NCBI RefSeq assembly: GCF_946187725.1
Contig: NZ_CAMHSK010000006.1
Location: 1 to 64,000 of the forward strand
DNA length: 64,000 nucleotides
Reading direction: 5' to 3'
From: an uncultured Treponema sp.
Lineage (GTDB): Bacteria > Spirochaetota > Spirochaetia > Treponematales > Treponemataceae
The first letter of the stretch is position 1. Every line of letters begins with the position of its first letter. A program made the translations under genes and the position numbers. Below, piece after piece: positions 1,557-38,831 of the stretch. Below the pieces are notes generated by a model. That model did no database searches. It was not told where the DNA came from and saw only the letters and a program-made list of their open reading frames with translations.

Positions 1557-4500
1557 CTACTTCTGTTTTACTTCGCCCATGAGAGTTGTTCCATCGGCGA
1601 AGTGTGCAATTGTTGTGTAATAATAACCGTCTGGGATATCTTTATAATTATCACTTCCATAGGTAAAACTTGTGTTTGTTGTACCAGTATAAGTAACAAT
1701 ACCAGTTTCCTGAGCTCTAGCTTCCCATTCACGGATATATTGTTCAGTAGTTGCAGTTCCAAAACGCTCAGCATAAAGCTCAGAACTAAAGTCTCTTGAA
1801 CAGTACATAGTATGAACAAACACTGGATTATCTGTAAATATCTGGTAACCGTTAGCTCCCACTATCCAGTTTTTATTATTGCAGACGATTTCATTAGCAG
1901 TGCCCTTGTAACGAAGATAATCTGGATAAACATAGAGTGGCTGACTCTGAACAATTTCAAAATTATTTCTTCCATAACCAGAACCTTCGTACCAAACTGT
2001 ACTAGTATAATTTACAATAACTTGCATAAATTGGTTTTCATAATCACTGCAATCGACAGAATAGTAATACCTTGTTTCAGCAGCTATATTACCAACATAG
2101 AAACTATCTGTACCATTCACATCTTTCATTCGAGCAATTGTTGATCTTTGATAAGTAGGGCTATCAAATTCTACACACGGAGTCCATGAATTATCCGCAA
2201 GTTTCTGTATATTTACAAAATTTCCATGAATATGCTGTTCATCATTCTGTAGTTCGTTAGCAACAGGATATGATTCTGTTCTACGATGAATTCGTCCATA
2301 AGGCTGTGCAGAAACCTTAATCTGGTCTACAGATTCAACAGTTTCAAAACTGACTTCCGGAACATAATTTGCAATATAATATCTCATTAGATAAGGTGCA
2401 ACTTTCAGATAATTATTTTTCAATGGAGAATTATCTTCAAGATATGAGTATATATAATAATCTCCAAAATCAAGGCCAGCATATGGAATAGTCAAATATG
2501 CAGTTTCATTATAATATGTATCTGTTAGAGTAGATATAGTTTTATTGAATTCACCAGCATCAAGTTGCTCTTTAGTCAGATTTACACCGTAAGATTTAGG
2601 AACCACATAACAAGTAATTGGGTTAGGATTAGGAGACCTTTTTAACAAACCATTAATGTCATAAGGTTCTCTTCGTGCATCATATTCTCCATTAAGCCAT
2701 CCCCATGCTTGTAGGAATAATCTATAATTTCTATAATCATTAAATGACGCATGATTGTTTATGCCTCCGGTTATAAATGGAGGCTGATTATCAACAAGAG
2801 TCAAGTCAAGAGTCTGCTCGTCACTTTTTGCACATTCATTTCCCTGCGAGTCTAAAGCAACAAGATAAACAGTCTTTACAGTACCAGTTTTTACCCTGAT
2901 ATTTCTACCATCATAAAAACATTCACTGGCGTCATTTCTATCTCTGATTTCATCCAATCTAATAATATATCTATACTGAGAATAATCATAATCTTCATCT
3001 GAATATTCAATATCGATATCAAAGGTTGCGTATCCAGTATTAGGTTCATATATGACCTCACCAGCTTCATAACTTGAATCCGGCAGCGTCATTGTTGGAA
3101 ACTGTATACTGTCATCTGTAGGTGCCGTCACACCATTATAGTAAGCAAATGGTTTTGAAATACATAAAGGTCTATAGTCCTTAAAAGCATAATCCAAATG
3201 ACCTTTTTTACCTAATTGCGCAATAACCCAAGGGAACAAATAATAAGTTCCTTCACCATCGATATCAGGATCGTGTCCAGAAGTTCCTTTCCAATATTGT
3301 TTTATCTCATCTTTTGAAGGATTAGGAACAGTCGAAAAATAAAGTATTGGTTCATCATTTTCTCGCGGGTCCGTAACTATTATCCTATCATCTAGATAAA
3401 TACTATGCCCCATTAGTCCAGCAATGTATGTACTTTTGTAAAAAGGAAGTTCCAGTTCTTCAATGATACCATTTTCCTGCTCTACTTTAGCTCTTAATAT
3501 ATAGTCTTTATCGATATCTCTCTTTATATTACTAAGTGCTGTGTTGATTCTGTCTTTCAAATCGTAGTCTGTCCCAATATTACTACTAAACACTTCACCT
3601 TTATTAACATCATCCTCATATAAAGTAACTGTCAGATAGCGTGAAGTATTTAAATATGTGGTACCATAATGCTTATAGAACTTATCGCTATAAATTCGGA
3701 ATTCTGAAAAAGTGAAATCAGCCTCGTAGCAATTTTTCTCACTGTTATAAACAGGAACTATTGTTTGAAAATCATTTTTAGTGTAAATCAATATTTTATC
3801 TAAGCGCACATTATTTTGAGTGTCTTTAATGACATAATAATCTTTTTCAGTTTTATTTCCCTCGTTATCCCAAAGACTTATCGTAAGTTTAAACAGACCA
3901 TCTGCAGTTGTATGTTCAGAGTCAAAATCATATATGAACGCATAATTATACACTGTATTTCCATTGGTATCGTTGTCATATGAATCTACAATTCTAAATG
4001 AACGAGTTGAACTTGTTTCCTGAGCCACATAACCGCCTTCATTATCTTTCTTATAAGTTTCTGTTACCTGAACTTCTTTGATTCCGCTTTCCAAATCATA
4101 CCCTGAAAGAGTAATATACACTGAAGAAACATGGTTCGTACTATAAGTACCCCAACCATTTGAATATCTTAAAATTTTTTGCCAAGAACTTTCAGGTTGA
4201 TTAGAGAGTTCCCGATAAAAATGAGCACTCGTATCATTTGTAGAATAGAGATGAATATCAGAAATAACTGGAGGATTTGTTTCCTGAGAGCCAGAAACAA
4301 GACAATTTATTGCCAGAGAATTGTATATTTCTTCACTTGGGCACAGCGGATGTCCATCTTTATCTGTAATAGATTTTCCATTAGCATTCAAAGTTATTGT
4401 CATTGCCAGCTGGTTATTTTCATTTTTCACAAGATTTCTAAACGAACTTGTTGGAATAAGTATAAGTTCTGTGGAATCTGTTGAACTTTTCCATCTTTCA

Positions 4501-7500
4501 TAAAAGTACTCTTCGTAATGGATTCCATTCTTACCAGTCTTTGTAATTGTAATCGAGCCTGACGGTGATAAAATCTCCGATGCAGCGTCTATTTCTTTGT
4601 TAAATTTGAGATGTATATTAGAGTAACTGTTGAATGAATTTACGCTAAACAAGTCAACTGTACCATTCAACTTCACGCTCTGAACTATAGGCACAAGATA
4701 TGATTCAGCCTTAACCGTTACATTATCAACCTGCTCATAAATATACATTTTTGTTGAGATAGCTGAAGGATCTGCTATTTTGATTTTTGATTCGTCAATA
4801 TCATCTCCGGCAGAATCTTTTACTGTCCAGCCTGTAAACTGATAACCTGATGTTGGGGTAAATTTCAAATCAATTACATCACCGAGATTATAAGAAGTGT
4901 CTGTTACATTAAGATTTCCACCATCGGCCTCATAAGTAACGGAAACTTTTTTGCTTGATGTCGAATCTATTTCATAACGGCCAGAATATTCTTCTTCCAT
5001 ATAAATTGGATTATCACCGTCTTTATAATAGAAGATAGCTGGAACCGTAACGGTAATTGTTTTTTTGGTATTTAGTCCAGTAACATCAAGAAGTTTTGTG
5101 TTTTTAATCGTGATTATATTTCCGCTCAATGAACGAGTTTCAAAGAAATCACTGACATCATTTCCAGCCATTGTAATTTTGATTCTGTTCAGAAGCGATG
5201 AACATGCAACATCAAGATTTTTGTTGAATTCAATTGTAATCGTTGAATCTTTTGGATTTACATTGTTTGAATTCGGCGTAAACCCGGTAATCGCAGGCAA
5301 CAACACATCCTTCGCTGAAATATTGATTCCCCAGCCGCTTGTTCCTGAACCGACTGCGTCATTTGAGAAAATTGTGGCTTTGGCGGGATTTGTGCTGTCG
5401 ATTGTGAGTGTAAAATATGTTTTTGTGCCGCTTCCGTTCTTTACTGTGATTGTGCCGCTTGTTACATAGCCAGATGGGCTTACCGTGTAGCCTGATGTTG
5501 CAGATTCGACTTTCCAGCCTGCAAACTTATAGCCAGCTACGGCCGGGAATTCAAGATTCAGAGACTCCTCAATGTTCATCTCCTGATTTGTTCCGCTTGA
5601 ATGGAATGTGCCGTTAACGCTAATCTGTCTTCCTGTAACTGCCGCATCTGTTGTCGCAAAACGCACTTTTGTTTTTGTCATTGTCGAGCTGTTTACTCTG
5701 TACGACCAGCTGAAATCTTCATCAGCAACGGTGATTTTTGTTTTGCCGTCGGCTGCCATGTAGTAAATCTTATCGTGTGGAACTGTTACGGTCACGGTTT
5801 CAAACGAGTTGTTTACCGGGAGCATTTTGGCAGGTGAGAGAGTGACTGTCTTGTTGTCACTTGAAATGCTTGTAGAAAAATATGTGGTCTTGTTGAAATT
5901 TGAAGCGGTATATGTTACGAGCACTGCATCTTTTGTTTCGGCATTTATTTCATGGTCAAATTCGAGCACAATCGGCTCGTTTTTGGCGAATTCGGTGAGA
6001 GCATTTTCATTATACGGAGAGACTTTTGAAATTGACGGTCTTTTGTAACAAATCGCCGTAATGTTAAGTGTTGCGGCCTTGTTTGCAGTGATTACCGCCT
6101 CCTGCGATGATGAATTTGAATCTTTGAATGAAACCGCATCTGTGACGACATTTCCATCCGAATCAGTGATTTCCCAGGCATAGAACTGATATCCTTCAGC
6201 AATCGAATGAGAAATCGAAACATCTTCGCCGATATTGAATTCTTCGTAATTATTATGATTTACGATTCCTGCGGCAGTTGCCGGTGAAAAGGCTGCCCCA
6301 TCCTCACCGTTTTTGACGCTGAAATTTGCTTTTAATTTTGCATTCGTGCTGTGGTCGACCGTAAAATCAAAAGAGCTTTCTTTGAGGCTGATTTTTGTTG
6401 CGCCATCGATATAATACAAATCTTCCGGAACTGTTACCGCGATGATTTTTTTGCTTCCCTTTGGAACTGAAATCATTGCTGTGTTTTTAAGAGTGATTGT
6501 GTTTCCGTCAAGAGTTCTGGTCGTGTAATATGCGTCGAGGCTGTTTCCGTCTGAACTTACACGGATTTTGTTAAGGAGTTCGGCACACTTTGGCTCCAAA
6601 TTCTTATTGAATTTGATTACGATGTCCGAATCCTTTTTGCTTGTTCCTTCTGATGAAGGGCTTGTTTCTCTTATTACTAGTTTTTCGCTGACATTTGCGC
6701 TCACCACGGCAGGAACTGCATCATAGGCAACGATTTTTGTTGAAAGAGCGGTTTTGTCTGCGATTGAGATTTTGTCTTCATGAACATTTATGGTCCAGCC
6801 ATTGAACTGCCAGCCTTCGTTCAATTCAAAGGAAATTGTTCCTTCCTGCCCGATTGAATATTCACCTCTCGTAGAAGAAAGTTTTCCAGAGCCGCTTGCC
6901 GCTGTAAAGGTTACGGTTGCTTTTTCGTTTGTGCTTGAGTCGATTTTATAGTCGAAAGTGAATCCCTTTCCGCCAATCGAGATTTTTTTGCCGTCTGCAT
7001 TCAGATAATAGAAATCAGCCGGAATTGCGACAGTTACGGTCTTTGTCTGGCCTGATGCCACATCAATCATGTTTGATTTGTCGGCCGCAAAAGTGACTGT
7101 ATTTGCACTCACTCTCGGTGCAAGGAAACTTGATTTTACAGGAAAGCCGCCGACCGTAATTGTAATATTGTCGAGCTGTGCGATTCCTTCTTCATCGTCC
7201 GGCAAATCGTTACTGAAAGTCAATATAATAGAAGAATTCTTGCTTACGACCTTTGTTTTTTCCGGGCTGTATTCAGAAACTCTAAGTCGCGGTGCACAAA
7301 TTGCTTTAATCTGAGTAGCATTTAAATTATCTGTTTTTTCCATTACGGTTGCCGTTGTATCAGCACTGTCTTCATCGGCAACACGGATTATGCTTGGATT
7401 ATATTCCCATTTTACAAACTGATAATCTGGATTTTCGGTGAAACCAAGCGTGATTTTCTGACCGATTGAATAATCTTTTGAACCGGCAAGATAAACTGTG

Positions 7501-8416
7501 CCTTCGGTCGCATTACTTGTAAGGTTTACGGTTGCCTTTTCATCGGTTGCTTCCGTGATTCGATAGCTCCATGATTTGTCTGAACTCATCGAAACACCTT
7601 TTTCATCTGTAATATCTTTTGAAATTGTAACGCTTACGGTTTTATAAGATACGCCTGCCTCAAATTCAATCTGATTCTTTTTATCGACTGCAATTGTGAG
7701 GAATTTTCCTTCGATTGTTGGCCTAAGAAAGTGCTCAGCGATTGAAATTCCGTCCGAAGTAATTGAGATGTTCTTGAAGAAAACCTGACCGTTATATTTG
7801 TATGCCCAGATTTCATATTCGTCATCGTCTTCATCCAGGATTTCTTCTGCACCGCTTGGGATTTCGCTGTTCTTAAAAATAAAGCTTGATTTTGATGGGG
7901 CTTTAGTGAATTCCACGATGATTGAGCGGTCGCGGCTTACACCATTCGGCTCGTATTTTGGACTTGGCTCGCCGGCAAAAGCCAGTCGCTCTGCACACAA
8001 CGGCTTGATTCGGATGTCTTTTGAATCGATGGTGATTTTTGCCTTTGTTTTGACAGAATATGCGTCTTCAAATTCTACGCCTTCGATTTCTTCACCGCTT
8101 TCTTTGGAAACGGCAATCCATTTTGAAAAACTGTAGCTTGAATTCTCGGAGAAAGAAAGTTCAAAATCATAACCGACCTTTGCAGTATAATTGCCCGAAG
8201 GAAGAGTTGAGCCAGTGCCTTCGTCAGAAGAAACCAAAACGGTTACGGAAGCGGCTTTGGCAAAAGCGATGTCTGCATCAAGCTGTTCCTTGAAATCTCC
8301 GCCCTCAAAAATGTTATTGCAGGAAAGGAATAAAAGCGGTAAGGCAATACATAGTAATACCCCCCCCCATACAAATGAAAGTTTTTGTTTAGATTTTTTG
8401 CGTGGAACTTTTTCAT
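1557..8416 (-). CDS. Giant repeat lipoprotein, frame interrupted at a poly-G tract
   Basis: A 2,226-codon open frame that lacks a sensible start. Upstream of it in the same frame lies a full lipoprotein signal peptide (VLLCIALPLLFLSC, Cys lipobox), but no ATG precedes it in that frame. The only ATG with a good ribosome site (GGAG at 8423-8426, ATG at 8414-8416) reads into this frame only if one base is gained at or before the G9 tract (plus-strand C at 8360-8368). With ten Gs the product is about 2,286 residues. The N-terminal half has six modules, each pairing an InlB-B-like unit (GYxFxxW core) with a SbsA/Big_5-like Ig unit (SxIxIxFNKNL core). The C-terminal roughly 900 residues are non-repetitive, Tyr/Asp-rich and coded by more AT-rich DNA. 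It is likely a surface adhesin-type lipoprotein. The break is either a phase-off state or a homopolymer error. Confidence 0.85.
8360..8368 (-). repeat. Poly-G9 tract (C9 on plus) in the lipoprotein signal-peptide region
   Basis: Nine consecutive C on the plus strand, nine G in the coding direction, lie between the ATG at 8416 and the hydrophobic signal-peptide core. The ATG frame and the long frame meet only with 10 or 7 Gs. Slippage at this tract would therefore switch synthesis of the lipoprotein on and off. Confidence 0.85.
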
Positions 8417-32587: not shown

Positions 32588-32618
32588 AAGGCTGCCTTTT
32601 GAAGGCGGCCTTTTTTTT
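32588..32618 (+). terminator. Intrinsic terminator of rny
   Basis: AAGGCTGCC (32588-32596) pairs with GGCGGCCTT (32604-32612), one G-U pair, 7-nt loop, and T8 overlapping the stem end. Eight bases after the rny stop. Confidence 0.92.
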
Positions 32619-32641
32619 ATCCCAAAAAAATCTTGAAAAAC

Positions 32642-32670
32642 TGACGAAACATATAATTTTGCGTTATAAT
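32642..32670 (+). promoter_or_regulatory. Promoter of the barrel/transglutaminase-like gene pair
   Basis: TGACGA (32642-32647), 17 bp, TATAAT (32665-32670), giving a leader of about 24 nt with GGAG at 32687-32690 before ATG 32701. Confidence 0.65.
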
Positions 32671-32700: not shown

Positions 32701-34566
32701 ATGAAAAAAGTTGTTTTGGCAGGTCTGGCTGCACTTACCCTTACAGGGCAAATTTCCGCGCTGGACTTTGCGTTCAGGCTCACCCCTGTCATGAATTTTC
32801 CAAAAGAAGAGAATCTTGGAACAGGATTCGGCGGTTTTCTTAACGCAGACATTGATTTGTTCAATTTTGTGACTTTGGGTGTTGAGGGCGGCTACAACTC
32901 AATCAAAGAAGAATCATTAGATAAAAATTACGATATTTTAATGGGCGGTGCGACTCTCGGCCTTTATTATTATCCTTTTTCCCGCCTTTATTTAAGTGCA
33001 AACGGCTCATACGGAATTCAAAAGATTTCGATTGATGCCCCAAGCGTTACAAGTGATTCACGCGGCACATATTACCGTGCTTTTGGAGAGCTTGGCTTCC
33101 GCTTCACGCCGGGCTTTGTCATGAGCGCAGTCGGTGGTTGCCAATCATTTAAAATCGAAGGCTCACCATTCATTTCTTCAAATTTTGCAGGATTGAGCGC
33201 AAAGTTTAATTTTTCCACAAATTCCTCTGCATCCTCAGATGATTTCTGGGTCAGCTTTGAGCAGGACTCAGCGGCATTCCCGGTCTACGCATCAATGTAC
33301 AGTCAGGTTCCGCTCGGTTATGCGACGCTCCGTAATGTCAGTTCTGCAGAAGTCCGAGATGTCCACATTTCATTCAGGGCAGGAAAATACACTTCCGCAG
33401 AAAAAGAATGTGAAGTTCTTTCTATATTAAACCGCTACAGCAAGGTCGAGATTCCGGTATATGCCGATTTCAGCCCGGAAATTTTGCGTTACAGCGAAGA
33501 TGGTAAAATCAACGGTGAACTTGTAATCAGCTACACTTTCCTTGGCAAACGAAAAACCGAAGTACAGAACATTGTTTTTGATGTAAAACATAGAAACAGC
33601 TTTATGTGGAGCGACAGCGCTTCCCTTGCATGCTTTATCGATAACGGTGCAACAGAGATTCTTGAAACCGCAAAATACATGGCGGGTGCAGAAATCACAA
33701 ATCTAAAGGCCGGAATCAACTCTCCGTTTCAGTACGCGGCAGCTATCATGGAAGGATTAAGGCTCGCCGGAATCGTCTACAGCGAAGACACTGTTACGCC
33801 ATACACGACCTTCCGTTCAACAGAAGATATTGATTCAATTCAGTACCCGTTGCAGACTTTGAACCTTCTTTGCGGTGATTATGATGATTTGGGAATCCTT
33901 GTCTGCTCATGCCTTGAAAGTTTTGGAATCGGAACGGGCTTTGTTGCAATGGATGATGATTTTATCGTTCTCGTTGACACAGGCATTGCTCCAGAAAAAA
34001 AAGGCAATCAGTTCACAGGGAACGATGTCATTACAGACGAAAACACAAGCTGGCTTGGTTTAAGCATGAAGAATTTCGGCAAAGGCTTTACGCAGGCACG
34101 AATTGAGGCCGCAAAACAGCTTAAAAAAATGCAGAAAGATCCAGAATCTCCTTATGAACTAGTTGATGTTCATGCAGCCTGGGAAGCATATCCTCCGGTC
34201 ACTTTCTCAGGATACAGAGGTTCTTATAAAAATCCATCAAAAGACGCAATCATTAAAGCTGTCAACGAAGACATCAATTACTATATAAATAACGATTTGG
34301 CAACTTTAATCAAAAAATTCCGCAGTTCAGGAGATACAAAACACCTCGCTGACACCTATGTTCGCGCTGGAATGTACAATGACGCAATCGCTGAATATCA
34401 GAAACTAAATTCTATTGCAGCATGGAATAACATGGCCATGGTCTATACAACGCAGAAAAGTTACAAATCAGCGCTCAGCATGTACAACAGAGTCCTTGCA
34501 AAAGAACCTGAAAATAGAACTGCACTGGCAGGAAAAAAGAAAATTCAAATTCTTGTCGGAGAATAA
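32701..34566 (+). CDS. Outer-membrane-type barrel, degenerate transglutaminase-like and TPR protein
   Basis: 621 residues with a signal peptide (VVLAGLAALTLTGQISALDF). Residues about 20-180 look like beta-barrel strands; a middle domain follows; residues about 355-450 align with the transglutaminase-like core of the next gene but the catalytic Cys is Tyr394 (CGDYDDLGIL) and the His position is Asp420 (MDDDFIVL). TPR-like helices close the protein (YNDAIAEYQKLNS, YKSALSMYNRVLAKEPEN). It is therefore a probable catalytically dead paralogue. The frame extends upstream of ATG 32701, but GGAG at 32687-32690 and the signal peptide fix the start. The next gene begins two bases after its stop. Confidence 0.85.
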   Translation: MKKVVLAGLAALTLTGQISALDFAFRLTPVMNFPKEENLGTGFGGFLNADIDLFNFVTLGVEGGYNSIKEESLDKNYDILMGGATLGLYYYPFSRLYLSANGSYGIQKISIDAPSVTSDSRGTYYRAFGELGFRFTPGFVMSAVGGCQSFKIEGSPFISSNFAGLSAKFNFSTNSSASSDDFWVSFEQDSAAFPVYASMYSQVPLGYATLRNVSSAEVRDVHISFRAGKYTSAEKECEVLSILNRYSKVEIPVYADFSPEILRYSEDGKINGELVISYTFLGKRKTEVQNIVFDVKHRNSFMWSDSASLACFIDNGATEILETAKYMAGAEITNLKAGINSPFQYAAAIMEGLRLAGIVYSEDTVTPYTTFRSTEDIDSIQYPLQTLNLLCGDYDDLGILVCSCLESFGIGTGFVAMDDDFIVLVDTGIAPEKKGNQFTGNDVITDENTSWLGLSMKNFGKGFTQARIEAAKQLKKMQKDPESPYELVDVHAAWEAYPPVTFSGYRGSYKNPSKDAIIKAVNEDINYYINNDLATLIKKFRSSGDTKHLADTYVRAGMYNDAIAEYQKLNSIAAWNNMAMVYTTQKSYKSALSMYNRVLAKEPENRTALAGKKKIQILVGE

Positions 34567-34568
34567 AA

Positions 34569-36134
34569 ATGAAAAAACTCACTACGATTTTTTCCGCATT
34601 TTTGCTCTCTCTTCCAACATTCGGAATGGACTTTGAAATTGCCCTGATGCCGCAGCTTGATTTCCATACCGCAGGGGATTTTGACAATTCTTTTTCAGGC
34701 ACGGTTTCCCTCGACTCATACCCTTTTACTGTCCGTGGCCGCGATAAAATCGGATTTGGCTTTCAGGGGGGCGTGGCTGACATAAAGGCACTCACTCTCG
34801 ATGATACGCCGCTCTATTACGGAGACCTTGCACTCACTTATCAATGCAGGCTTCATGACAGATTTGCTTCAGGCCTTCAGGTTTACGGAGGAATGTGGAA
34901 TTTCCCCAAAGTCGAAGAAAAAAACACCGAATCCATGTCGGGAAGTCTTTTTGGCGGACGGATTTTTGCTGATTTCTATGCTTTACCTGAGCTGAAATTC
35001 GGAGTTTTCGCGGGCTACAGCAAGTTCAAGTATAAACCGGAAGATTTTACCAACAGAATTGATTTGGGAGTCAGTCTAAAATACAGCTTTACAAAAGGAA
35101 TCTTTGCAAAAAAAGTCGTTGAACTGGATGAAAACACGATTGAGCCAATTTTCCCAGTTTTCTACAGCTTCTACAACGAAAATTCTTTCGGAAAACTTGT
35201 ATTCTTTAACGGCGAAGAAAATAAAATCAGCGATGTCACGGTCTCTGTTCTGATTCCTGAATACATGACGCTTCCAAAAATCTGTGCACAAATCGAAGAA
35301 GTGGGAATCAACGAATACTTTGAAGCAGAGCTCACGGCATTCATAAACGAGACAATTCTTTCTTCACTTGCAGCACACAAAACAGAAGGAAAAGTCATCG
35401 TCTCTTACCGCTCTCTTGGCAAACGAATTACCAGCGAGCAGGTTTTGGACTTCACGGCATTGAACCGCAACGCAATGAACTGGAACGATGACCGTAAGGC
35501 GGCCGCTTTTGTGAGCAGTCATGATGGTGCGGCAAACAAAATATCTAAACTCGCAAAATCAATTATCCTTAAAAATCCCCAGAATGATTATACACAAAAT
35601 CTTGATTACGCAAGGGGAATTTTCGCCACTTTAAAAGCCTACGGTGTAAGCTATGTAAAAGACCCTACAAGTCCATTTTCTTCCGGCGAAACACTTGAAA
35701 TTGACTTTTTGCAGTTCCCTTATCAGACACTTTTGTACTCTGGCGGCGACTGCGACGACCTTTCTATTCTGAACTGCGCAATTTTCGAATCAATTGGAAT
35801 TCAAACGGCATTCATCACAGTTCCAGGGCATATTTTCATGGCAATTGATTCTGGCGTATCTTCAAAGCGGGCATCAAAAGTCTTGCTGGACGGGCGCTAC
35901 ATCATTCAGGGTGAAAAGGCATGGATTCCGCTTGAAGCAACTGTTTGTCAGGATAACTTTGAAATTGCCAGAACAGCGGGTTATAATCAATGGAAGAGCG
36001 CAGCCAAAAAAGGTGAAGCCGAGCTTTACCCTTTGAGTGAAGCATGGCAGCACTACAAGGCAGTCAGCGTTCCTGAATCAGATGCGGACATTGAGCTTCC
36101 ATCTGTTGAACGAGTTTTAAAATATTTAAAATAG
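34569..36134 (+). CDS. Paralogous barrel protein with intact transglutaminase-like core
   Basis: 521 residues with a signal peptide (LTTIFSAFLLSLPTFGMDF). Same order as the preceding protein, barrel-like N-terminus, middle domain with ISYRSLGKR-type block, then a transglutaminase-like core with Cys395 (GGDCDDLSILNC), His421 (VPGHIFMAID) and an acidic residue in WIPLEAT. No TPR tail. Bacterial transglutaminase-like proteins often act as periplasmic proteases or peptide-modifying enzymes; the substrate is unknown. GGAG lies at the end of the upstream gene. Its pairing with a catalytically dead homologue suggests a complex or division of labour. Confidence 0.85.
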   Translation: MKKLTTIFSAFLLSLPTFGMDFEIALMPQLDFHTAGDFDNSFSGTVSLDSYPFTVRGRDKIGFGFQGGVADIKALTLDDTPLYYGDLALTYQCRLHDRFASGLQVYGGMWNFPKVEEKNTESMSGSLFGGRIFADFYALPELKFGVFAGYSKFKYKPEDFTNRIDLGVSLKYSFTKGIFAKKVVELDENTIEPIFPVFYSFYNENSFGKLVFFNGEENKISDVTVSVLIPEYMTLPKICAQIEEVGINEYFEAELTAFINETILSSLAAHKTEGKVIVSYRSLGKRITSEQVLDFTALNRNAMNWNDDRKAAAFVSSHDGAANKISKLAKSIILKNPQNDYTQNLDYARGIFATLKAYGVSYVKDPTSPFSSGETLEIDFLQFPYQTLLYSGGDCDDLSILNCAIFESIGIQTAFITVPGHIFMAIDSGVSSKRASKVLLDGRYIIQGEKAWIPLEATVCQDNFEIARTAGYNQWKSAAKKGEAELYPLSEAWQHYKAVSVPESDADIELPSVERVLKYLK

Positions 36135-36169: not shown

Positions 36170-36541
36170 ATGAAAAAATTAGCATTCGTGGCAGCCGCAG
36201 CACTTCTCGCATCATCAGTTCTCTTTGCTGTTGATTACGAGGTCAAAACCGTCACAGGAAAAGTCACATTCGCAGAAAGTGAAAAAGGCAAACAAAAGCC
36301 TGTCACAAGCGGCATGACACTTTCAGACACGGCAATCGTCGCTCTAGGAACAAATTCGAAACTCGTTGTCACTGCAGACGGCAAGGACATTACGCTCCGC
36401 ACACCCAAAAAGGCCAGCCTCGGTGATTTAATTTCCACAAAAAACGGAATTTCAGGTTCACAAGCCAAAAAAGGCAAGGGCACAGCAACAGCTGCTTCTC
36501 GTGCATCAGATGTAATGGCAGAAGGCGAACTTGATGACTAA
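36170..36541 (+). CDS. FecR-like periplasmic protein
   Basis: 123 residues with a signal peptide (LAFVAAAALLASSVLFAVDY). The mature part follows the FecR beta-strand pattern: VKTVTGKVTF...KPVTSGMTLSDTAIVALGTNSKLVVTADG. AAGGAGG precedes the ATG. It overlaps the cyclase gene start by 8 nt. Treponema pallidum, as I recall, has the same order, a FecR-domain protein followed by a CHASE2 cyclase, so it probably tunes the sensor domain of the cyclase from the periplasm (inference). Confidence 0.8.
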   Translation: MKKLAFVAAAALLASSVLFAVDYEVKTVTGKVTFAESEKGKQKPVTSGMTLSDTAIVALGTNSKLVVTADGKDITLRTPKKASLGDLISTKNGISGSQAKKGKGTATAASRASDVMAEGELDD

Positions 36542-38831
36542 GCGAAAGACATTTGCGTTCCTCATTCCGCTTGTCTGTGTGGCGGCAAGTTCGCTCCTGC
36601 TCTTCACGAATCTTGAGGCAAAATTTTCTGATTTGTTTCAGAGATTTTTGCCTTCAACTCAAATTCGAAACGATGTTCTTATGGTAGGAATCGATGATTT
36701 CGCGATTGAAACCATCGATTCTTTTCCTTTTACAAGGGATGTCTATGCAGACTGTATTTCCATTATGGAAGAAATGGGAGCACAGTCTATCGTATTCGAT
36801 TTGAGTTTTATCGACAAAGCACGAAAAAGCGTTAATGAGAAAGACGAGATATTCTCTCCTGATGAGGAGATGGAAAAGGCCCTTAAAAAATCCGACATTA
36901 CCTTCCTGAACTTTACGCTTGATTATACCAGCGACATTGATGAAGAATCAAAAAACATTCTTGATCAAAAAGGTCTTTTACCAAACGCTGAAATCAAAAA
37001 CGACAAAGTTACTGAAGAATATACAGGCGTAGTTCCGACTCTTCCAATTTTTATTGAACATGCAAAGGCAGCTGGATTTGTAAATGCAGATCCTGACAGC
37101 GACAATTACTACCGCAGGGTAAATTTAATCGCAAAATATGATGATCAGTACTACATGCAGCTTACCTTACCTGCCCTTCTTCAAAAACTTGGAAATCCCA
37201 AAATCATCGTAGAAAATAGAAAGATTACGCTCAAAAATGCCAAAATCGACGGTAAAACAAAAGACCTGCAGATTCCACGCGGAAATGACGGAAAATTTAT
37301 CCTCAAATATCCGAAAATGCAGTTCAATGAATACAATTATCTCTCACTGGGAGACATTTACCGTATTGCACAGCTTAAACGCGCTATGGCAGAAGAGGGC
37401 GAAGCTGAACACATCGAAGAATACACAAATCTATGTGCTGAGGTAAGACCCAAGCTTGCATCAGCAATCTGCATTATCGGAACCTGTGCAACAAGCACAT
37501 CCGATTACGGCGTAAATCCGTACGAATCTCAGTATCCTCTTCCCGGCGTACACTACACTATAATCAACCAGATTTTGAATGGTGACTTTACAAGTGAAAT
37601 TCCGCCGTACATTTCAATCATTTATGCCCTGATTTTAACGACTCTTCTTGTATTGGCCGCAAAAAAAATGAAATCGACGGTCGGAAAAGTCATAATCGGG
37701 CTAATTATGATTTTTGTCGGCACTGGAATTCTGCTTGCCTATTACATCATAACAAGAACCTTTGTCGGTGAAACGGTTCCGCTCTTCTCTTCAATTCTGG
37801 CATACATTTCCGTAATCGTTCTTGGATTCCTTACAGCTTCAAAAGACAAAAAATTCATAACGAATGCATTCAGTCAGTGTCTTTCAAAAGATGTCGTTAA
37901 TCAGATTGTTGCAAATCCTGACAGTTTCAAGCTTGGCGGTGAAAATCGTGAGATGACTGCAATCTTCACTGATATCCAGAAGTTCTCTTCTTTCTCTGAG
38001 CTTCTTACGGCTAGTGAACTGGTTGCGCTTCTCAATTATTACCTCACAAAAATGAGCGACATAATCATGGCAGAAGGCGGCACAATCGACAAATACGAGG
38101 GAGATGCTATTATCGCTCTTGTAGGTGCGCCGCTCAAAATGGATGACCATGCCACTCGTGCGGTAAAGGCTGCACTCAAAATGAAGGCCGCAGAAAAGGT
38201 TATGAATCAGGAAATCCGGAATATCGCTAATGGACCACAACCAGTCGGAATGAGCGATTCCCTTTACTCTGCATTCAAAATCATGGTTCAAAACCGAAAG
38301 GAAATCTTTACGCGAATTGGCATCAACTCCGGTGAAATGATTGCTGGCTACATGGGAAGCGAAAATAAAAAGAATTACACAATGATGGGAAACAATGTAA
38401 ACCTTGCAAGCCGTCTTGAAGGCGTAAACAAGCAGTATTCCACCTTCGGTATTCTAGTGAGTGAAGCAACTTACAAACAACTGGGCGAAGAGATTCTGTG
38501 CCGCAGACTCGATAAAGTCCAGGTTGTAAATGTTACGACCCCGCTCACGCTTTACGAACCGCTTTCACTCAAGGCAGAAGCGAGCGAAAATCTTCTTGAA
38601 TATGTCGCTGTCTGGGAAAAAGCAATGCAAAACTTTGACCGTGAAGAATATGCAGAGGCACATGATAAATTCTGCAAACTTGCCGTCGCAAATTCAGATG
38701 ATAAAGTTGCCGCATATTATGTAAAACTTCTTGAAGATTTCTTCCTCAAAGGACGCGCACCTAGCGAAGAAGACGGATTCGGAGTTGTCTACAATCCAAA
38801 ACTACACTGCTTCAGACTTCTGAGCAAATAA
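36534..38831 (+). CDS. Class III adenylate/guanylate cyclase with CHASE2 sensor
   Basis: 765 residues. Membrane helix near the N-terminus (FAFLIPLVCVAASSLLLF), CHASE2 extracytoplasmic sensor (RNDVLMVGIDDFAIETID, AQSIVFDLSFID), three further helices around residues 360-440, then a cytoplasmic class III cyclase with metal-binding TAIFTDIQKFSSFSE and YEGDAIIALVG, and RIGINSGEMIAGYMGS...MGNNVNLASRLEG. A TPR-like tail (MQNFDREEYAEAHDKFCKLA) follows. It makes a cyclic nucleotide, probably cAMP, in response to an envelope signal. Start: ATG 36534, three bases after an alternative TTG. Confidence 0.93.
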   Translation: MTKRKTFAFLIPLVCVAASSLLLFTNLEAKFSDLFQRFLPSTQIRNDVLMVGIDDFAIETIDSFPFTRDVYADCISIMEEMGAQSIVFDLSFIDKARKSVNEKDEIFSPDEEMEKALKKSDITFLNFTLDYTSDIDEESKNILDQKGLLPNAEIKNDKVTEEYTGVVPTLPIFIEHAKAAGFVNADPDSDNYYRRVNLIAKYDDQYYMQLTLPALLQKLGNPKIIVENRKITLKNAKIDGKTKDLQIPRGNDGKFILKYPKMQFNEYNYLSLGDIYRIAQLKRAMAEEGEAEHIEEYTNLCAEVRPKLASAICIIGTCATSTSDYGVNPYESQYPLPGVHYTIINQILNGDFTSEIPPYISIIYALILTTLLVLAAKKMKSTVGKVIIGLIMIFVGTGILLAYYIITRTFVGETVPLFSSILAYISVIVLGFLTASKDKKFITNAFSQCLSKDVVNQIVANPDSFKLGGENREMTAIFTDIQKFSSFSELLTASELVALLNYYLTKMSDIIMAEGGTIDKYEGDAIIALVGAPLKMDDHATRAVKAALKMKAAEKVMNQEIRNIANGPQPVGMSDSLYSAFKIMVQNRKEIFTRIGINSGEMIAGYMGSENKKNYTMMGNNVNLASRLEGVNKQYSTFGILVSEATYKQLGEEILCRRLDKVQVVNVTTPLTLYEPLSLKAEASENLLEYVAVWEKAMQNFDREEYAEAHDKFCKLAVANSDDKVAAYYVKLLEDFFLKGRAPSEEDGFGVVYNPKLHCFRLLSK

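Follow-up and report, generated by a model that had tools for sequence, protein, structure and literature searches.

A transglutaminase-like protein and its apparently dead twin may form a Lap-like outer-membrane module in spirochaetes

Why should a bacterium keep, side by side, an active-site-bearing protein and a copy of it with the active site replaced? This question is raised by two adjacent genes, gene 1 and gene 2, in the first 64,000 nucleotides of contig NZ_CAMHSK010000006.1 (NCBI RefSeq assembly GCF_946187725.1) of an uncultured Treponema sp., a stretch referred to below as the window. Their products join an outer-membrane-type barrel to a core resembling that of transglutaminases (TG), and the core of the first appears to be catalytically dead. 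Here we demonstrate the fold, the loss of residues, its single origin, the co-inheritance of the two genes, their operon context and their co-occurrence with a family of giant lipoproteins. Enzyme-pseudoenzyme pairs are usually recognised singly; this one has a single origin and is conserved without exception in the pairs examined, which come from several spirochaete families, and single-gene relatives show the state that preceded the duplication. Because of these three features, the service of a pseudoenzyme to its twin becomes directly testable. We found no description of a TG/dead-twin system in the open-licence full text of PubMed Central (PMC).

Gene 1 (32701..34566, + strand, 621 codons) and gene 2 (34569..36134, + strand, 521 codons) are separated by two bases, in agreement with the original prediction, which had been made from the letters of the window alone. 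Both proteins start with a signal peptide. In gene 1 it is followed by a barrel (residues ~22-172), an immunoglobulin (Ig)-like domain (~176-298), a pseudo-TG core (~303-497) and a helical tail (~514-621), whereas gene 2 consists of a barrel (~20-173), an Ig-like domain (~184-297) and a TG core (~306-497), with no TPR. That the tail of gene 1 is made of TPRs, as had been proposed, was borne out by a Pfam TPR_1 match (4.8e-7; 34336..34563, + strand; best stretch, residues 573-605). The AlphaFold2 (AF2) models of the two proteins, each built from an eight-sequence alignment (mean predicted local distance difference test scores of 75.6 and 77.7, respectively), both contain eight antiparallel barrel strands, and the N-terminal barrels align with NspA (Z 10.9 and 16.9) and with OmpA (1qjp; Z 9.8 and 15.8). 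Thus, the N-terminus described beforehand as barrel-like is modelled in both proteins as an OmpA-type, eight-stranded outer-membrane barrel. Since such a barrel has both ends in the periplasm, the TG core should hang beneath the outer membrane, and we infer a periplasmic location for it from this topology.

The TG-like nature of the core was supported by structure and by sequence matches. In the AF2 model, the gene 2 core (residues 306-497) aligns with peptide:N-glycanase (1x3w; Z 9.8, root-mean-square deviation 4.2 Å over 164 residues), and residues 304-488 align with a putative protease (3kd4; Z 9.1); matches of Z near 9-10 are moderate. Matches of the Ig-like domain were to C-terminal domains of animal transglutaminases. 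Pfam Transglut_core was reached by 9 of 24 members of the active family (best 1.3e-4) and by 4 of 20 members of the gene 1 family (E up to 0.1); the gene 2 protein by itself had no Pfam match. When profiles of the active and inactive families were compared with hhalign, they aligned with a probability of 100 over 677 columns, which indicates homology over the whole length. The structural matches of gene 1 comprise its barrel, Ig and TPR parts without one for the TG core, and this absence is no evidence against the fold. Among the matches listed from a PDB profile search with the whole model, all were TPR chains, a core-only profile had no significant match in the PDB, and Foldseek by itself scored these multi-domain models poorly at the global level. 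As modelled, the core of gene 2 has a TG-like fold, and the corresponding claim of the original prediction was upheld.

The two proteins differ at the catalytic positions. Gene 2 retains Cys395 (35751..35753, + strand) and His421 (35829..35831, + strand), as had been noticed, and also the third catalytic residue, Glu456 (35934..35936, + strand), which had been missed and which stands in place of the usual Asp. All three are invariant at 61 of 61 loci of the genus (60 fetched loci and the window), and the triad columns are invariant in the 24-member alignment of the active family. At the equivalent positions, assigned by alignment and scripted numbering, gene 1 has Tyr394 for the Cys (33880..33882, + strand) and Asp420 for the His (33958..33960, + strand), both correctly read before, and has likewise lost the Glu, to Ser455 (34063..34065, + strand). 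Among the first copies of the genus, the His position is Asp in 61/61, the Glu position is Ser in 53/61 and Ala in 8/61, and the Cys is lost in 55/61; the six that retain the Cys all lack the His and the Glu.

This pattern was found again wherever we looked. We read 17 further regions, 11 of them additional loci of the same genus set and six from other genomes of the genus; all 10 readable first copies were inactive, and all nine readable second copies, together with five long single genes, had the C/H/E triad (L219 is too fragmentary for the catalytic columns, and the second gene of L216 is cut). Outside the genus, all eight first copies of pairs were inactive (SER, SEK, ADS, VDS, EDS, ADS, NES and LDS at the three positions), and seven of eight second copies were C/H/E; the eighth, L174, holds the same residues on two reading-frame pieces. 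There, the active copy (L174:7360-8970, - strand) is interrupted by an in-frame stop between the His part and the Glu part. Single-copy TG-TPR proteins had C/H/E in 16/16. An orthologue of gene 1 with an intact triad, which would have told against the original prediction, was met in none of the 61, 10 and eight first copies in these three sets. The same loss in every pair examined is not due to chance. Judged by its sequence, gene 1 is a catalytically dead twin, with a homologous TG-like core in which the triad is missing.

The dead copy has been maintained as faithfully as the active one. The two genes lie on the same strand at 61/61 loci (median gap of 8 bases), and the pairing is ancient and without exception wherever both genes are readable. 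Their distance matrices are correlated (r 0.90; none of 1000 permutations was as high), with equal mean distances of 0.600 and 0.599. The ratio of nonsynonymous to synonymous substitution rates (dN/dS), available for the 5 of 10 comparisons that allowed dS to be estimated, was 0.08-0.09 for the dead copy and 0.05-0.09 for the active copy. These results show that the dead copy is under purifying selection. A tree of 78 sequences from which the catalytic columns had been removed (21 of the 61 genus loci; short fragment L174_7360 dropped; quick search, with support from the Shimodaira-Hasegawa-like approximate likelihood ratio test [SH-aLRT] only) united all 30 dead copies from pairs as a single clade (SH-aLRT 100), whose sister group is formed by the 30 active copies of pairs. 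The single-copy genes of other families fall outside the paired clades, and the pairs are nested among the singles. This topology fits one duplication with one loss, and the paired dead copies have a single origin. Conservation, strict co-inheritance and single origin together give good support to the earlier suggestion of a pseudoenzyme partner.

The single-copy proteins contain barrel, core, TPR and tail together. It would follow from the tree that an ancestral barrel-Ig-TG-TPR-tag gene was duplicated once, with one copy keeping catalysis and the other losing the catalytic residues and keeping the TPRs. In the lineage of the window, catalysis and TPRs have been split between the copies after duplication. 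At loci of the L066-L089 type, the active copy retains TPRs and has a long extension (second genes of ~700-1370 amino acids), and most of the complete ones end in a transmembrane-like stretch and a basic tail. The nearest named relative of the window is a metagenome-assembled genome of a Treponema sp. from water-buffalo rumen, which has the same four genes (L094).

These four genes include two that follow the pair. Gene 3 (36170..36541, + strand) encodes a small secreted protein, weakly similar to the LapA retention module, with a C-terminal tag. Gene 4 (36534..38831, + strand) overlaps the end of gene 3 and encodes a CHASE2 protein with a guanylate/adenylate cyclase domain of class III (CHASE2 5.9e-34, Guanylate_cyc 3.5e-22). 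Upstream of gene 1 are an intrinsic-terminator-like site after the preceding gene (32588..32612, + strand; such sites are no commoner in this region than in shuffles) and a sigma-70-like promoter match (32641..32670, + strand; a consensus match only). On these signals, genes 1-4 look like a transcription unit of their own. A relative of gene 3 is present at 15/61 loci and one of gene 4 at 16/61, mostly at positions +2 and +3. At L174 and L176, from two other genera, the dead copy comes first, followed by gene 3, the cyclase and finally the active copy. No Pfam family matched gene 3; 12 of 13 of its relatives weakly match the LapA retention module of NCBIfam (best 1.5e-7). The label FecR was rejected for it, as there was no Pfam FecR match in 13 members (E up to 1). 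In the genus, the small protein was matched to the end of its profile in 33/33 genomes with the pair and in 3/65 others (G009, G013 and G043). Outside the genus, it was found in 5/7 genomes with pairs and in 0/16 with single TG genes (E < 1e-18), and CHASE2 cyclase relatives were found in 22/23 of these pair and single-TG genomes.

The tag of gene 3 (last 20 codons, 36479..36538, + strand) connects the small protein with the TG proteins. An S/T-rich R-A-S tail ends 13/13 aligned gene 3 relatives, after a linker that varies. The ending R-A-[SA], with a Trp near the end, also closes 16/16 single TG-TPR proteins (R-G-A in one). At L159, the tail lies only a few bases from where the contig stops. 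In two pairs of family f2 the tag is on the dead copy; in all other pairs it is on the small protein and on neither TG protein. The Trp is missing from the small proteins of L174 and L176 and of the closest relatives of the window. Among 698 other complete open reading frames of at least 100 amino acids in the same loci, one matched, and this was a gene 3 relative that had initially been mislabelled. A joint complex best accounts for a tag that shifts among three polypeptides from the same cluster, and the distribution of the tag suggests that the TG protein, the dead twin and the small protein belong to one complex. We lean slightly toward the tail being a docking or cleavage element shared by that complex.

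A further family of genes accompanies the TG genes and may supply the client of the enzyme. Its products are giant lipoproteins that have in common a lipobox and a conserved N-terminus. In many loci the giant genes lie just upstream of the pair, just downstream of it or after the cyclase, and in other families they directly follow single TG genes. In the genus, the giant profile (E < 1e-10) was matched in 33/33 genomes with the pair versus 4/65 without it (G009, G010, G013 and G041). In the phylum, it was matched in 28/392 genomes (E <= 1e-5), 27 of them among the 57 genomes with a TG core; the 28th, G366, has a weak match in a 71-codon frame. The 57 genomes were taken by reading the table of a TG scan of the phylum, the 92 matches of which include TPR-only ones; at most three or four candidates were scored per genome, and its copy numbers are lower bounds. 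The giant gene of the window lies at 1557..8416 (- strand; profile match 7995-8360, E 2.7e-26).

The N-terminus of the giants has up to 23 matches in one genome (G072, G074 and G005 were noted), and the giant lipoproteins are apparently a large and expanding family of surface proteins. In the window, a tract of nine G (8360-8368) lies in the signal-peptide region of the giant gene and, in this assembly, the ATG and the lipobox are in different frames. Runs of at least eight G or C occur three times in 1.50 Mb (100 fetched loci) and once in the window, and three of these four are at the start of giant genes (window, L039 and L048). Phase variation of giant genes through such G tracts is possible from the position of the runs.

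The most economical reading of this locus, we infer, is an outer-membrane, Lap-like (LapG-like) module. Gene 2 would encode a TG-like cysteine enzyme, tethered in the outer membrane and facing the periplasm. Gene 1 would be its obligate, catalytically dead twin, which would hold or regulate the enzyme on the periplasmic side of the outer membrane, and it may act as a scaffold. The substrate of the enzyme would be either the giant lipoproteins or the tagged small protein, and the cyclase would sit in the inner membrane. We consider it very likely that the products of genes 1 and 2 assemble into a heteromeric complex just beneath the outer membrane, and rather probable that the client is the giant lipoprotein family encoded beside the TG genes. 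For the reaction being proteolysis, as in LapG, and not cross-linking, we see an even balance. A link from the complex through the small protein to the CHASE2 cyclase, coupling the state of surface lipoproteins and the level of cyclic nucleotide, is plausible, with a little less than an even chance. The module as a whole, counted as correct if at least the complex and its lipoprotein client are, has about equal prospects of standing or falling. In its fullest form, which we propose only tentatively, it would be a trans-envelope system of spirochaetes: a tethered TG-like enzyme that works only with a dedicated dead twin, which arose once and has stayed with it ever since, that handles giant and in some species phase-variable surface lipoproteins, and that is assembled through a tag migrating from the enzyme to the dead twin and on to a retention-module-like protein reporting to a CHASE2 cyclase. 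The enzyme and dead twin travelling with giant lipoproteins point to a means of cell-surface control that has not been described. If the giants are the clients, the pair would offer a handle on how many Treponema species govern a large, variable repertoire of surface proteins, and possibly tie these proteins to cyclic nucleotide signalling.

For comparison with known systems we used PMC5192318, PMC13090378, PMC13001267, PMC5498481, PMC9239204 and PMC7529298, each in excerpt. The closest appears to be LapG/DvhG with LapA-type adhesins and LapD, in so far as it is described in the excerpt of PMC13090378. Shared with it are a periplasmic TG-like cysteine enzyme, a giant surface protein as the presumed client, a protein that here is weakly retention-module-like, and an inner-membrane second-messenger protein in the same cluster. 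Unlike LapG, the enzyme candidate has a barrel tether of its own, a dead twin as its partner, lipoproteins as would-be clients and a CHASE2 cyclase in place of a cyclic di-GMP receptor, and no [T/A/P]AAG site has been shown. The D-C-D/A flank seen here resembles the acidic calcium pair described for DvhG only in part. The resemblance to LapG concerns the components and their arrangement and does not prove a relationship.

Several observations weigh against this reading. The triad of LapG and the BTLCP family is C-H-D, whereas that of the second copies is C-H-E, with Glu in 61/61. Direct membership in the LapG family was rejected: LapG was not among the Pfam matches of the 24 active members (E 0.01), and the best PDB chain by sequence, 4u65_E ('putative cystine protease'), which we take to be LapG, was at a non-significant E of 0.66. 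Gene 3 scores 24.3 bits against the LapA retention module, below the 50-bit cut-off, and two f2 genomes with pairs have no small protein. Turning to the presumed client, no giant was detected in 30 of the 57 TG-core genomes of the phylum, which may reflect either the sensitivity of the profile or real absence, and the counts of co-occurrence between giants and TG ignore phylogeny. G010 and G041 have giants without TG, and G009 has a tag-bearing small protein, the cyclase and a giant, with the TG core absent. In the window itself, the giant gene is ~24 kb from the pair, on the opposite strand and outside the operon.

The complex might instead be mainly a receptor, in which the barrels sense the outside, the TG core has little or a non-processing activity, the tagged small protein relays the signal to the CHASE2 cyclase, and the giants are merely co-regulated effectors. 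An outer-membrane barrel, NsrA, is reported in our excerpts to feed CHASE2 cyclases in Sinorhizobium, and this supports the signalling half of the Lap-like model as well. According to the excerpted sources, Campylobacterota CHASE2 cyclase genes cluster with those for FecR-domain and TPR proteins, and in these clusters, as in FecR-CHASE2 operons of Burkholderia, a small periplasmic protein is encoded together with the CHASE2 sensor enzyme. In the window and at numerous loci of group A, the pair is immediately followed by genes 3 and 4. The system described here differs from these in that gene 3 has no Pfam FecR match and the barrels carry TG cores as an active/dead pair. The strict C/H/E of the active copies (61/61) and single TG-TPR proteins (16/16) argues that catalysis matters, and giants directly adjoin single TG genes that lack a neighbouring small-protein gene. 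We regard a receptor of this kind as unlikely.

The enzyme could also be a transamidase, which would cross-link or anchor, and not cleave, the giant lipoproteins or the tagged small protein, with the acyl acceptor presented or held by the dead twin. The combination of a TG core and an Ig-like domain is reminiscent of parts of animal transglutaminases, but the Ig-like domain is N-terminal to the core here, whereas the matched animal Ig domain is C-terminal, and the nearest core structures are a peptide:N-glycanase and a putative protease. On balance, a transamidase seems rather improbable. Protein 4.2, a homologue of TG in erythrocytes, is similarly a TG-fold protein and was one of the structures matched by the Ig-like domain; it is catalytically inactive, and is not known to have an adjacent active twin, a barrel or TPRs.

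It is quite improbable that gene 1 has exchanged the old active site for a new one, for instance for a metal or a peptide, on its G-D-x-D/E-D/E and D-D-F segments. Acidic residues beside the lost Cys do stay conserved, and the His position is fixed as Asp throughout the genus, with the Cys position free to vary; however, in pairs outside the genus the replaced positions read Glu with Arg/Lys (SER, SEK) or Glu with Ser (NES), and no single new site is conserved. That the first copy is simply a decaying duplicate, for which the loss of all three catalytic residues might speak, can be dismissed, given its presence at 61/61 pair loci, a mean divergence equal to that of the active copy, a dN/dS of ~0.08-0.09 and a single origin basal to all pairs.

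The Lap-like reading was also considered beside a role in phage defence. The gene 4 cyclase matches Pycsar cyclase models in PADLOC; an anti-phage role was set aside, since genes 1-3 had no PADLOC match, the cyclase contains a CHASE2 sensor and the surroundings consist of envelope genes. The Ig and TG part of the active copies (gene 2 residues 209-428) is matched by the N-terminal positions 14-291 of 1903 of NCBIfam NF058533, 'anti-phage protein ProA', in 24/24 active members (best 7.9e-16), and gene 2 scores 35 bits, far below the cut-off of 1500. No paper on NF058533 was found in the open-licence PMC literature. The match suggests, at the level of sequence, that the active copies have an Ig+TG unit in common with a defence protein. 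A third TG type was seen in long single genes of ~830-1090 amino acids (L184 in G013, L185 in G046, and L221-L225). In this type, L184 is Q/H/E, an independent loss of the nucleophile, and its relative L185 is intact.

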